Shown here piece by piece: positions 7,213 through 47,009 of a stretch of 54,843 bases of DNA (position 1 is its first letter; every line of letters starts with the position of its first letter). The notes beneath the pieces were generated by a model, which was not told the origin of the DNA, searched no databases, and was given only the letters and a program-made list of their open reading frames with translations. Source of the stretch: Bacteroidota bacterium (GTDB lineage: Bacteria; Bacteroidota; Bacteroidia; JABEUT01). The stretch is taken from positions 1 to 54,843 of the forward strand of contig JABCZW010000013.1 of the NCBI GenBank assembly GCA_013289475.1. Reading direction: 5' to 3'. Made by a program: the position numbers and the translations under genes.

Positions 7213-7262
7213 AAAGTTTATAAAGTTTTTTTGACTTTTCACTTTATAACTTTATAAACTTT
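7213..7262 (-). terminator. AT-rich inverted repeat at the ilvE 3' end
   Basis: Perfect 15-base arms, AAAGTTTATAAAGTT at 7213-7227 and its complement at 7248-7262, enclose a 20-base loop. The right arm overlaps the ilvE stop codon. A run of T lies in the loop on the plus strand. The position suits a weak terminator or mRNA 3' end for ilvE, but the stem is almost free of G-C pairs, so it may be a protein-binding or repeat-derived element instead. Confidence 0.4.
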
Positions 7263-8325
7263 AAACTATAGTGTTCCAGTTATTCTTATCAGGTGCCACA
7301 CCCAGGCGAATATCAGAAAGGCGCTGCTTTATCGTTAATGAAACATTGCTATCCTTTACCGTTGGCAAGGTGTAATCTTTGCCTTTAATATGTATTACCT
7401 GTATAGGGGCAACAACAGCAGCAGTGCCGGTACCAAATGCTTCCTGCAAGGTGCCATTCTCAAATCCACTCACTAATTCCTTTGCACCAATCTTGCGTTC
7501 TTCTACTTTATAACCCATATCCTTAGCAATGGTTATAAACGAATCGCGGGTAACGCCATCCAAAATAGAATCGGATAAAGGCGGAGTTACCACCACACCA
7601 TTTACAAGAAACATCACATTCATTGTGCCTGATTCTTCTATATTCAATTCAGCTGAACCATCGGTCCATAATACCTGGTCAAAACCCTCTTTGCGAGCCA
7701 AGCTCGACGGGTAAAAAGCACCACCATAATTACCTGCACACTTAGCTGAACCTGTCCCGCCCCTGGCAGCACGCCTGTACTTATCTTCCACCTTTACTTT
7801 CAAGGGATTAGAATAATAAGGACCTACCGGGCCGGTGAATATTATGAACTTATATTCTTCTGCTACCTTAACACCAAAACGTTCTTCCGATGCAAATACA
7901 AATGGCCTTATATATAACGATGATCCTTCATTTGCAGGCACCCAATCAGCATCGGCTTTCACAAGTGCCTTTACTGCCTCACTAAACCGTTCGAAAGACA
8001 TGGCAGGTATACACATACGCTCCATTGACCGGCAAAATCTTTCGTAGTGTTTATCCATCCTGAATATGGATATATTCCCCTCTTTCATTTTAAAGGCTTT
8101 CATTCCTTCAAAAACTATCTGTCCATAATGCAGGGCAAGCATAGTAGGCGATATTTCAATATGTCCGAACGGAACTATAGACGAGGGGCCCCACTCTTCA
8201 TTTAAATAATCTGACAATAACATGTGGTCAGATATAATACTACCAAAAGGGAGCTTATCGAAATCTACTTCTGAAAGGCGGCTATTCTTAGTCTTTTCTA
8301 CTGTAATCTTTTCGGTGGCAATCAT
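7261..8325 (-). CDS. ilvE: Branched-chain amino acid aminotransferase
   Basis: PLP enzyme of fold type IV that interconverts valine, leucine and isoleucine with their 2-oxoacids using glutamate/2-oxoglutarate. Lys195 in GTGSAKCAGNYGG is the PLP-binding residue; YGQIVFEGMKAF (about 67-78) and EESGTMNVMF (about 230) are family blocks, and the late GTGTAAVVAPI block is present. The length of 354 residues fits the larger, eukaryote-like/BCAT class. A near-consensus -7 element TATCCTTG lies on the minus strand at 8368-8375. The branched-chain E1 enzyme near 43.4 kb would use the 2-oxoacids made here. Confidence 0.95.
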   Translation of the reverse strand: MIATEKITVEKTKNSRLSEVDFDKLPFGSIISDHMLLSDYLNEEWGPSSIVPFGHIEISPTMLALHYGQIVFEGMKAFKMKEGNISIFRMDKHYERFCRSMERMCIPAMSFERFSEAVKALVKADADWVPANEGSSLYIRPFVFASEERFGVKVAEEYKFIIFTGPVGPYYSNPLKVKVEDKYRRAARGGTGSAKCAGNYGGAFYPSSLARKEGFDQVLWTDGSAELNIEESGTMNVMFLVNGVVVTPPLSDSILDGVTRDSFITIAKDMGYKVEERKIGAKELVSGFENGTLQEAFGTGTAAVVAPIQVIHIKGKDYTLPTVKDSNVSLTIKQRLSDIRLGVAPDKNNWNTIV

Positions 8326-8413
8326 AAATCAGGGTTATTTTTATTCTGTCTCTCTATACCTATACTACAAGGATAAGAATTTTTGTTGTAATAAGTATAA
8401 TCATAGGGTAAAA

Positions 8414-8446
8414 TTTGCTCATTGCACCATTTAATGCCTATCTTTA
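8414..8446 (+). promoter_or_regulatory. Bacteroidota-type promoter of the Cys/His/Met-rich gene
   Basis: TTTG at 8414-8417 and TATCTTTA at 8439-8446 are 21 bases apart and fit the -33/-7 pair TTTG and TAnnTTTG with one mismatch. The start codon at 8473 is 26 bases downstream. Confidence 0.5.
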
Positions 8447-8472
8447 CTCTATAAACCAAAAATAATATTACT

Positions 8473-8955
8473 ATGATTATAGTTGCTTGTACCCTGCTAG
8501 CTCTGCTTGTAATTGTTTCAGGAATGAAACTACTGGCCCAAACCAATAAGGATAGCCTTGGTAATCTGTATAAATACGTTTCATGGATTGTTATTGTAAT
8601 AGGATTCTTATGCCTTATTTGTTGTGGCATGCATTGTGCCATGAAGTGCTGCCACCATGGCGACCGTTGCAAAATGGAAAACAGGTGCGATATGGATGAT
8701 GATGATGACGGAGGATGCTATATGATGCACCACCACCATGGAATGGGTGGCGGATGTATGATGCATAGGGAATGCTGTAATGGTATGAGTGGCGGAAGCT
8801 GCAACGATATGGGCGGAAACTGCAAAGAAAGTTCAGAATGCCATGATGGCGATTCTAAGTGTAATATGAATATAGGCGATGGCGGAAGCTGCCCTATGAT
8901 GAAGGATGGGCATTGTGCAAAGGGAGATTCTGCCTGCACCAATATGAAGAAGTAA
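8473..8955 (+). CDS. Cys/His/Met-rich membrane-anchored protein, probable metal binder
   Basis: A 160-residue protein I do not recognise as a named family. Two hydrophobic segments (about 1-17 and 36-54) are followed by about 100 residues that are extraordinarily rich in possible metal ligands; the whole protein has about 20 Cys, 10 His and 17 Met. Clusters include CCHHGDRC, MMHHHHGMGGGCMMH, RECC and repeated GGSC/GGNC/DGHC units, plus a DDDDD run. With two helices the tail would sit on the same side as the N-terminus. Such composition suggests binding of copper, zinc or another soft metal, but no enzyme motif is visible. It has its own promoter and a strong terminator, so it is monocistronic. 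Confidence 0.75.
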   Translation: MIIVACTLLALLVIVSGMKLLAQTNKDSLGNLYKYVSWIVIVIGFLCLICCGMHCAMKCCHHGDRCKMENRCDMDDDDDGGCYMMHHHHGMGGGCMMHRECCNGMSGGSCNDMGGNCKESSECHDGDSKCNMNIGDGGSCPMMKDGHCAKGDSACTNMKK

Positions 8956-8976
8956 TACTTGCTTAATGAAATATAG

Positions 8977-9005
8977 AGTCCCGCATCTCTGCGGGACTTT
9001 TTTAT
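8977..9005 (+). terminator. Rho-independent terminator
   Basis: Stem AGTCCCGC (8977-8984) and GCGGGACT (8991-8998) with a six-base loop, followed by a T-rich tail. It lies 21 bases after the stop of the Cys/His/Met-rich gene. Confidence 0.9.
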
Positions 9006-9115: not shown

Positions 9116-9739
9116 ATGAAACGCATATTATTACTCTCTTATCTCCTGCTTATTACAACCTCAATTATATATGGGCAGACAGATAAAAGTCCCATTGTAA
9201 AATATTTACTTAAAAGGGGTTATATATTCCCTGATTCAACAAAAACAATTGACAGAACAAGGAGCTTACAAAAATGGCCTGATACTTTGTATTATAATAC
9301 TGTTTATAAATCACCTCTTTTAGAATCGCCTACAATTCCTATCCCATTTAGCAGTGTTGAATACATAGGTGGCCAGTATATAGTAAGCCCTACAATAAGT
9401 ATTGGTTATGGTTATACTTGGTTCTTTGGTGACTTTATATTTAATGAAAATGACAAAATAACCGTTGACCCGGTATTTTCTTTTGGTGTAATTGCCGACG
9501 CAGCTCTACAAAATGATTTCAGGTTAAATAAACTGGCAGGCTTTACTACAGATTTATTTATTGGTTTTGGCCCTTTTTCATTATTTGCAGGGTATGATTT
9601 TATTAATCATTCCGCTTCTATTGGTTTAGGCGCCCGACTTGATTTATACACCGTTTCTCAAAACAGTTTGCATCCGGTCGGAAAGGTAAGGTCTGTAAGA
9701 AAACATAAAAAACTAGCAAGGCCAATTCAAAACGAATAA
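9116..9739 (+). CDS. Exported protein of unknown function, possibly beta-rich
   Basis: A 207-residue protein with a signal peptide (residues 1-20, hydrophobic core LLLSYLLLITTSIIYG) that would be cut before Gln21. The mature part alternates short hydrophobic and aromatic stretches such as YIVSPTISIGYGYTWFFGDF and FGPFSLFAGYDFINHSAS, the pattern of a small outer-membrane barrel or beta-sandwich. It ends with a basic tail of Lys and Arg. I do not recognise the family. It sits alone between a terminator and a convergent tetR gene, with its own -7 element. Confidence 0.65.
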   Translation: MKRILLLSYLLLITTSIIYGQTDKSPIVKYLLKRGYIFPDSTKTIDRTRSLQKWPDTLYYNTVYKSPLLESPTIPIPFSSVEYIGGQYIVSPTISIGYGYTWFFGDFIFNENDKITVDPVFSFGVIADAALQNDFRLNKLAGFTTDLFIGFGPFSLFAGYDFINHSASIGLGARLDLYTVSQNSLHPVGKVRSVRKHKKLARPIQNE

Positions 9740-36461: not shown

Positions 36462-37421
36462 ATGAGTAAGTCTTTGAAAATAGTATATATGGGTACGCCG
36501 GAGTTTGCGGTTGCCACTTTAGATGCCCTCGTGCAAAGCAGTCATAAGGTTATAGCAGTAGTTACCACGCCCGATAAACCTGCCAACAGGGGATTAAAGC
36601 TACAATCATCAGCAGTAAAAGAATATGCGGTGCAACATAACTTACCCGTTCTGCAGCCTGATAAACTAAAGAGTGAGGATTTTATAAATGAGTTAAAAAA
36701 AATTAATGCCGATTTGTTTGTAGTTGTAGCTTTCCGTATGTTGCCTGAGGTTGTATGGAGCATGCCAAAACATGGAACAATAAATCTGCATGCTTCGTTA
36801 TTACCACAATACAGGGGTGCAGCGCCTATTAACTGGGCTGTAATTAATGGCGAAAGAGAAACAGGCATAACAACCTTTTTTATTACCCACCAGATAGATA
36901 CAGGCGACATATTAATGCAGGAAAAAATAACAATAGAAGAAGAAGACAATGCCGGCACTGTGCACGATAAGCTTATGACATCAGGTGCAGCATTGGTTGT
37001 AAAAACAGTTGATGCTATTGCCAATGAAACCATAAAAGCAATACAACAGCCTACAGTTGGTGAATTAAAGCATGCACCAAAAATATTCAGGGAAGATTGT
37101 GAAATAGATTGGAGTAAACCTGTCGATGAGGTTTACAATTCCATACGAGGCTTAAGCCCTTACCCAGGAGCTTATACCGTACTCCAAAATGAGGAAGGAG
37201 AAAAGTTGACATTAAAAATATTCAGCACAAAAAAACACATTGATTTGGTTATCCCTGTCGGGGAGCTATTAATAAGCGGTAAGAATGAAACCTTAATTGG
37301 ATGCGAGGATGGAGCGTTGGAAGTAATAGAGCTGCAGGCTGAAGGAAGAAAGAGAATGAAAGCGGCAGATTTTCTCAGGGGCTTCCCATTAAGTGCAGGA
37401 ACCTGGAAGACTATATTTTAA
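36462..37421 (+). CDS. fmt: Methionyl-tRNA formyltransferase
   Basis: Formylates initiator Met-tRNA. The catalytic segment is NLHASLLPQYRGAAPINWAV (about 108-127), with Asn, His and the later Asp in QIDTGDILMQ. The N-terminal Rossmann-like domain has MGTPEFAVATLDAL; the C-terminal OB-like domain begins near 205. At 319 residues it is full length. It is the third gene after GT4 and GT2, an association I see no functional reason for. Confidence 0.96.
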   Translation: MSKSLKIVYMGTPEFAVATLDALVQSSHKVIAVVTTPDKPANRGLKLQSSAVKEYAVQHNLPVLQPDKLKSEDFINELKKINADLFVVVAFRMLPEVVWSMPKHGTINLHASLLPQYRGAAPINWAVINGERETGITTFFITHQIDTGDILMQEKITIEEEDNAGTVHDKLMTSGAALVVKTVDAIANETIKAIQQPTVGELKHAPKIFREDCEIDWSKPVDEVYNSIRGLSPYPGAYTVLQNEEGEKLTLKIFSTKKHIDLVIPVGELLISGKNETLIGCEDGALEVIELQAEGRKRMKAADFLRGFPLSAGTWKTIF

Positions 37422-45913: not shown

Positions 45914-47009
45914 ATGATTACACAAGACCAGGTAAAAGGGGTGAAGGAGCGATTTGATGCGCTGAGGGGGCATCTTTGACATCGACAAACGGTTAAAAAA
46001 GATTGCTGAGGAGGAAACTGTAACACAGGCACCCGAATTTTGGAATGACCCCAAGAAAGCGGAAGTTATACTGAAACAGATAAAAAGCCAGAAGAACTGG
46101 ACCGAAGCATATAGCAAACTGGAAAAGAGTACGGAAGACCTTATTCTTACCTACGATTTCTTTAAGCAGGAAGCAGTTACTGAAAAGGAATTAGATGAAC
46201 AGTACAACCAGACTCTGAAATTGATAGAGGATCTGGAGTTTAAAAACATGCTTGGTTCTGAAGAGGATCATTTAAATGCCGTTATAGAAATAAATTCGGG
46301 TGCAGGTGGCACCGAAAGCCAGGATTGGGCATATATGCTTATGCGTATGTACCTTATGTGGGCCGAGAAGAAAGGATACACTGTCAGAGAAGTAGAACTT
46401 TCGGAAGGTGAAACAGCGGGTATAAAATCGGTTACCTTAGAGGTGCAGGGAGAATTTGCATTCGGGTATTTAAAGGGCGAAAATGGCGTGCACAGGCTTG
46501 TCCGCATTTCTCCATTCGACGCCAACGCACGTAGACATACATCATTCGCGTCAGTTTATGTTTATCCATTAATTGATGAAACTATTGATATACTTATAAG
46601 TCCCGCAGATATAGAATGGGAAACATTCCGTTCGGGTGGTAAGGGTGGACAGAACGTGAATAAGGTGGAAACAGCAGTGCGCCTCTATCACAAGCCTTCG
46701 GGTATTGTTATTAAGAACCAGGAATCGCGTTCGCAACTACAAAATAAGGACAAGGCCATGCACATGTTAAAATCTCAGCTTTACGAGCGGGAGATGCGCA
46801 GGAAGATGGAAACTATTGCGACTATTGAAAGCGGCAAAAAGAAAATTGAATGGGGTTCACAGATACGTAATTATGTAATGCACCCATATAAGCTTGTTAA
46901 AGATCTGCGTACCGATTTTGAAACATCGGATGTACAGGGTGTAATGAATGGTGACTTAGATACTTTTATTAAAAACTACTTGATGCAGTTTGGTAGCGGG
47001 ACTAAGTAA
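45914..47009 (+). CDS. prfB: Peptide chain release factor 2, with programmed +1 frameshift
   Basis: Reads UAA and UGA stop codons. The gene starts at ATG 45914 and stops in frame at TGA 45977-45979; the rest is in the +1 frame from 45978. The slip site AGG GGG CAT CTT TGA C matches the E. coli prfB site except for the codon before CTT. The combined protein has the tripeptide SPF (VRISPFDANARRH), GGQ in RSGGKGGQNVNKVETAVR and full length of about 364 residues. RF2 shortage would favour frameshifting, giving autoregulation. The final 8 bases overlap the convergent CPBP gene. Confidence 0.96.
45965..45980 (+). promoter_or_regulatory. Programmed +1 frameshift site of prfB
   Basis: AGGGGG at 45965-45970 is the Shine-Dalgarno-like stimulator, three bases before the slippery CTT (45974-45976), followed by UGA and C. 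Ribosomes slip from CUU to UUU and resume with GAC. Confidence 0.95.

Follow-up and report, generated by a model that had tools for sequence, protein, structure and literature searches.

A membrane hairpin with a ligand-rich tail

A single gene in a 54,843-nucleotide stretch of a Bacteroidota bacterium genome (GenBank assembly GCA_013289475.1, contig JABCZW010000013.1; this whole stretch is hereafter the window) raises the question of what a small membrane protein may do with a long tail crowded with cysteine, methionine and histidine. Sequence comparisons indicate that this protein is a member of a real, undescribed and widely conserved family of Bacteroidia, in which the tail may serve to buffer soft metals. 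The gene and its two main parts are the following:

8473 to 8955, forward strand: complete family gene (ATG start, stop included) for a Cys/Met/His-rich membrane-hairpin protein of 160 residues
8476 to 8655, forward strand: conserved membrane hairpin, with helix 1 (residues 2-24), a charged turn TNKD and helix 2 (residues 29-61), based on alignments, AlphaFold2 and hairpin-only profile searches
8656 to 8952, forward strand: tail (residues 62-160), predicted disordered, rich in Cys, Met, His and Gly, its Cys mostly single or as CC and spaced by 6-8 residues in its second half

The protein contains 20 Cys, 17 Met (start methionine counted), 10 His and 22 Gly. Compared with the 46 other long open reading frames (ORFs) of the window, which average 0.97% Cys, 2.70% Met and 1.87% His, the binomial chance of this content is 2e-16 for Cys, 2e-6 for Met and 1e-3 for His; the three residues together make up ∼5.5% of the window's proteins. 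An initial annotation, made from the letters alone, had described two hydrophobic segments and a tail with about 20 Cys, 17 Met and 10 His. The segments agree with the helices modelled by AlphaFold2 (residues 2-24 and 29-61) and the counts are correct for the whole protein, but residues 56-160 hold only 15 Cys, along with 14 Met and 9 His, the other Cys being located in or near the membrane segments. The HHHH cluster, also described there as flanked by Met, corresponds to residues 86-89, with MM just before it and GM just after.

An undescribed family of Bacteroidia

No credible relative of the window protein was found in Pfam, NCBIfam, PADLOC or PDB, and Pfam and NCBIfam returned nothing credible for 16 relatives either. 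Plasmid and phage collections yielded no relatives of the family, and we found no description of such a family in the literature. The initial annotation, which took the protein for none of the known families and proposed the Pfam check, had named two outcomes fatal to its proposal, a match to a characterised protein and the lack of a conserved Cys/His pattern among relatives; neither occurred.

A direct search of 60 relatives recovered the gene in all ten genomes of the same genus and in seven genera in total. In a sample of the class, the full-length profile matched 44 of 295 genomes and 17 of 155 genera; hairpin-only profiles added genomes G041, G097 and G224. Overall, the family occurs in about 46 of the 295 genomes and about 20 genera. 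Of 395 genomes sampled across the phylum, only the window's own matched the full-length profile, and the matches outside the class were chance matches to long proteins. Two weak hairpin matches, one in an antisense-like frame (L128) and one of 61 residues (L129), were read and rejected as chance. The position of the gene is kept within genera (beside ilvE in f1; also in f16, f24 and f4) and not between families, as expected of a chromosomal and mostly vertically inherited gene. It occurs as a single copy in the window's genome, an assembly that is only 57% complete.

The conserved hairpin spans ∼50 residues, within residues 1-60, and is modelled as two helices with moderate confidence. Alignments give a motif of roughly GMxLLAqtqKenLgnlyKyvsWfvi, with L20, L21 and L29 as its least variable positions. 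A second hairpin sequence type (LIAAIFLLIYINKNQLSKWYRYAG) was treated as part of the same family, since one hairpin-only profile search retrieves both types and a profile search with the second type scores the first at E 1e-4 to 1e-8.

From residue 61/62 to 160, the window protein is predicted to be disordered (pLDDT about 33), in an AlphaFold2 model built from 5 sequences only and of low confidence in the tail. Across the family, tails contain a median of 28% Cys+Met+His, with an overall composition of 10.5% Cys, 12.1% Met, 4.5% His, 15.9% Gly and 0.3% Leu. All the hairpin-profile matches that were read, up to E 1e-3, carry a tail rich in Cys, Met and/or His, except for two interrupted frames in G144 and G006. 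One hairpin-only profile reached two new lineages, G041 and G224, both with Cys-rich tails (L126 and L127); as they were outside the profile's input, they constitute an independent test of the link between hairpin and tail. The hairpin and the ligand-rich tail are thus co-inherited.

Regarding the interrupted copies, the one in G144 (L072, G144:C2) is a hairpin whose frame leaves the family after the first helix, with a 51-residue product, and is possibly a pseudogene or a sequencing error. In G006, the gene is split across two contig ends (C31 start and C82 start; L092 and L091), which suggests that assemblies may break in the repeat-like tails and so under-count the family.

Selection on the tail

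Tail length varies widely, with growth by repeat-like units, which would suit a membrane hairpin that has merely acquired an unselected low-complexity repeat by compositional drift. We regard this explanation as very improbable, since tail dN/dS is below 1 (about 0.1-0.4 in close pairs), Cys is preferentially conserved and the same chemistry recurs in about 20 genera. Close pairs of f4 genomes show a tail dN of 0.09-0.26 for a dS of 0.66-1.21; pairs of the window's genus were excluded, their dS being saturated. Tail Cys identity reaches 0.91 versus about 0.64 for Glu/Asp. Cys is the most conserved among the common tail residues; in each of five pairs, drawn from five families/types, its conservation exceeds that of non-ligand residues (Fisher p 0.004-0.04 each). 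Relatives keep a ligand-rich tail with Cys as its most conserved common residue, the pattern on which the initial annotation had staked its proposal. Taken together, these comparisons indicate purifying selection on a tail whose sequence changes fast while its chemistry does not.

Spacing of the ligands

The arrangement of the ligands was counted in 18 representatives, one per family/type where possible, with expectations from shuffling each tail. CxC was observed once (19.6 expected), CxxC four times (19.4 expected) and MC six times (19.8 expected). Conversely, Cys-x6-Cys (36 versus 18.5), CxM (38 versus 19.7), MM (38 versus 21.9) and HH (14 versus 4.6) all exceed expectation. The full set of 41 tails agrees with these figures. 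Cys residues are mostly spaced by 6-8 residues in the family. In the window protein, whose tail has neither CxC nor CxxC, the last ones occupy positions 102, 110, 117, 123, 130, 140, 148 and 155, about one per 6-10 residues. This spacing could result in part from repeat growth with a unit of ∼7 residues. Even so, the arrangement is the opposite of the CxC/CxxC pairs of metallothionein, CopZ, zinc-ribbon and thioredoxin proteins. The strong avoidance of both pairs bears out the earlier remark that the sequence resembles neither metallothionein nor CopZ.

Most lineages combine Cys and Met in the tail. Tails from f24 contain Cys and almost no Met, while two f6 paralogues (L066 and L080) have 0-1 tail Cys, 7-13 Met and 8 His. 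From this sequence variation, Cys, Met and His look interchangeable as ligands between lineages. By established coordination chemistry, Cu(I) and Ag(I) accept the three residues as mutually replaceable ligands, and SilE uses Met and His (PMC5008109); mainly for this reason we prefer Cu/Ag over Zn, Ni or Fe. The combination of Met and His without Cys in L066 and L080 is also better matched to Cu(I)/Ag(I) than to Zn. Storage or buffering of borderline metals (Zn, Ni, Fe, Cd) is improbable in our estimation. The Cys and His tails of f24, with few Met, would suit Zn or Cd, but most members are Met-rich, some paralogues carry Met and His only, and the tails avoid CxxC and CxC, the usual pairs of Zn sites.

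A second conserved element lies at the C-terminus:

8926 to 8952, forward strand: last residues of the protein, DSACTNMKK (152-160), in which the D[S/T]...K ending of the family is degenerate

This ending is present in 12 of the 18 representatives versus 0.3 expected in shuffled tails, in many relatives as KKDSVVVKK (L002 ends in KDTVVVKKEIKK and L075 in KKDSVVVKKK), and is absent from f4 and f24. The D[S/T]VVV-like form, lost in f4 and f24 and weak in the window protein, may resemble a TonB box, as carried by TonB-dependent transporters and by some colicins. Since the hairpin and this ending are the most constrained parts of the protein, the tail might instead act as a metallochaperone or docking scaffold that loads a membrane cuproenzyme or an exporter, the ending docking the partner. 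We find this unlikely: no constant partner gene lies nearby, the ending is missing from f4 and f24, and nearly all genomes have COX1, whether they carry the family or not.

A possible buffer for soft metals

With about even confidence, we propose from the sequence features above that the tail, disordered and tethered to the membrane, buffers soft metals, with Cu(I)/Ag(I) the most probable. An inner-membrane helical hairpin would tether a disordered tail of ∼100 residues offering dozens of Cys/Met/His soft-metal ligands. At the membrane surface, this tail could trap soft metals, with Cu(I) or Ag(I) as the likeliest, and may fold or condense upon binding. It would then either serve as a buffer when stress or influx releases metal, or pass the metal on to exporters or cuproenzymes. 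A role as metal sink or chaperone, suggested by the initial annotation, is an inference. Weakly, and at only slightly better than even chances, we favour a periplasmic tail with both protein ends outside. More tentatively still, and below even chances, the family could represent a novel kind of metal buffer in bacteria, a ligand brush: a membrane-tethered disordered chain with single or paired Cys every ∼7 residues, Met at +2, no CxC/CxxC, ligands interchangeable between lineages and a conserved C-terminal end that maybe docks a partner.

Several observations weigh against this reading or leave it unsettled. The positive-inside rule and charge bias fail to settle the membrane side, with no charge at the N-terminus, a loop mean of +3/-1 and +3.6/-2 over the first 20 tail residues. 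Inspection by eye of the upstream region gave no recognisable metal-regulator motif. The gene has no operon for metal transport or metal sensing beside it in the window, and its relatives show none with any consistency. The family is also missing from most genomes in the class sample. General stress is the commonest repeated neighbourhood theme in other families, with Hsp20, BON and DUF2188 in f6 (L057 and L065), YtxH in f12 (L071) and LEA_2 as next gene in five f24 genomes (L064 and four relatives). Such neighbours would also suit a redox function, one in general stress, or a metal buffer that general stress brings into play.

The main rival explanation is a membrane-anchored thiol/thioether buffer against oxidants (reactive oxygen species, HOCl) or electrophiles, for which metal binding would be incidental. 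Met and Cys are both oxidant sinks, the stress neighbours recur in three unrelated families (f6, f12 and f24) and a secreted thioredoxin-like gene follows L060. Nevertheless, this explanation leaves the His clusters and the CxM enrichment unexplained, while CxxC redox pairs are avoided and some members are devoid of Cys, which together make it unlikely, if still a serious competitor of the soft-metal buffer.

Co-occurrence did not link the family to COX1, nearly universal among the 60 relatives tested whether or not they carry the family, or to the HMBD domain, patchy among relatives and mostly absent in the window's genus. Because the family is missing from most class genomes despite near-universal COX1, an obligate oxidase assembly factor was rejected.

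Comparison with known metal-binding proteins

SilE, a disordered sponge rich in Met and His, folds when it binds Ag+ (PMC5008109). This family shares with SilE/PcoE a disordered, Met/His-rich chain with repeated ligand motifs, for which soaking of soft metals is proposed (PMC5008109): the window tail has the low pLDDT reported above for its low-depth model (about 33), and MM and HH are enriched. In contrast, SilE has a leader sequence, His and Met as ligands and a place in the sil operon, whereas the present tail is rich in Cys and tethered to the membrane, the protein has no sequence or family match to SilE/PcoE, and its gene has ilvE, MFS, TetR-like and hydrolase genes as neighbours in place of a sil/pco operon. 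By analogy, the protein most likely works like SilE but falls outside SilE/PcoE by sequence, operon, ligand and anchoring.

Metallothioneins usually contain ∼20-30% Cys; the window protein is below this range, its Cys content being high all the same (20 of 160 residues overall, 15 of 105 in the tail). Like SmtA, PmtA and MymT, it is a small Cys-rich protein with no stable fold predicted in the apo form. Cys residues of metallothioneins are arranged as CxC/CxxC (PMC6981760), whereas the 18 representatives have hardly any such pairs, are rich in Met and His and carry a membrane hairpin. No metallothionein family model or structure was matched in Pfam, NCBIfam or PDB. Similarly, the search for a CopZ/HMA chaperone gave no HMA match, and the tail, without CxxC, has no MxCxxC site.

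The likeness to Csp1/Csp3 lies in the many Cys and the proposed binding of many Cu(I). Csp proteins are preformed four-helix bundles that bind Cu in their core (PMC7558416), in contrast to the predicted disordered tail, for which the low-confidence model from 5 sequences shows no helix in residues 62-160. CupA of Streptococcus, a chaperone with two Cu sites in its solved structure (PMC7558416), is likewise membrane-anchored with a proposed Cu(I) handling, but differs from the long disordered multi-ligand tail on a two-helix hairpin. With HMBD (PF19335, CPMH motif), the resemblance is at the motif level only: CPM is enriched in the tails (CPMM in the window protein), while HMBD (YxCPMHP...CxxCGM) is not among the window protein's Pfam matches up to E = 10 and was not found in G000.

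To our knowledge, characterised bacterial soft-metal sinks are either folded or soluble, as with Csp, metallothioneins and SilE. A sink that is conserved, membrane-tethered and disordered would, if true, fill a gap in the handling of Cu/Ag or thiol stress by environmental Bacteroidia. Comparing its lineages would also amount to a natural experiment on the spacing, and the choice among Cys, Met and His, that a metal sponge needs.

Transcription signals and surrounding genes

The initial annotation had assigned the gene its own promoter and a strong terminator. A plausible candidate for the promoter and a clear, strong terminator are present:

8414 to 8446, forward strand: candidate Bacteroidota-type promoter, TTTG at 8414-8417 and TATCTTTA at 8439-8446
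8975 to 9000, forward strand: intrinsic terminator, 11-bp stem and T-run, -19.6 kcal/mol, fold z = -6.0

The TTTG/TATCTTTA element would fit the Bacteroidota promoter type. It is kept in L002 and L003, from the same genus, and partly in L008. TAnnTTTG occurs within the last 110 upstream bases of 21 of 45 family members, which are related and not independent, versus 2.9 in shuffled sequence. A search for RNA families in or near the gene gave only a sub-threshold isrJ match (E 0.79).

The gene is divergent from ilvE (7261-8325, reverse strand) and is followed by an unrelated exported-looking gene (9116-9739); MFS, TetR-like and hydrolase genes are its other neighbours in the window. Two antisense ORFs (8322-8672 and 8718-8942, reverse strand) were read as mechanical shadows of Met/His-rich codons. 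In relatives, no metal gene is a constant neighbour, but two single cases are suggestive of metal handling: a 67-residue protein with His-rich repeats (MTKHNHHKEAAHHHDRAAHHHKQ) and no Pfam match is encoded ∼0.15-0.4 kb upstream of L056 (G025:C50), one of two family copies in its genome, and an exported protein read by eye as HMA-like lies ∼2.6-3.2 kb upstream of L080.

Elsewhere in the window, the second most Cys-rich long ORF (36542-37033, reverse strand; 9 Cys in 163 residues) was rejected as a Cys-rich gene, being only the antisense shadow of an fmt-like gene (36462-37421, forward strand). Finally, prfB, for release factor 2 (45914-47009, forward strand), shows its usual and ordinary programmed +1 frameshift, with the 5' part in another frame up to the TGA in GGGGGCATCTTTGAC and the remainder continuing in frame.
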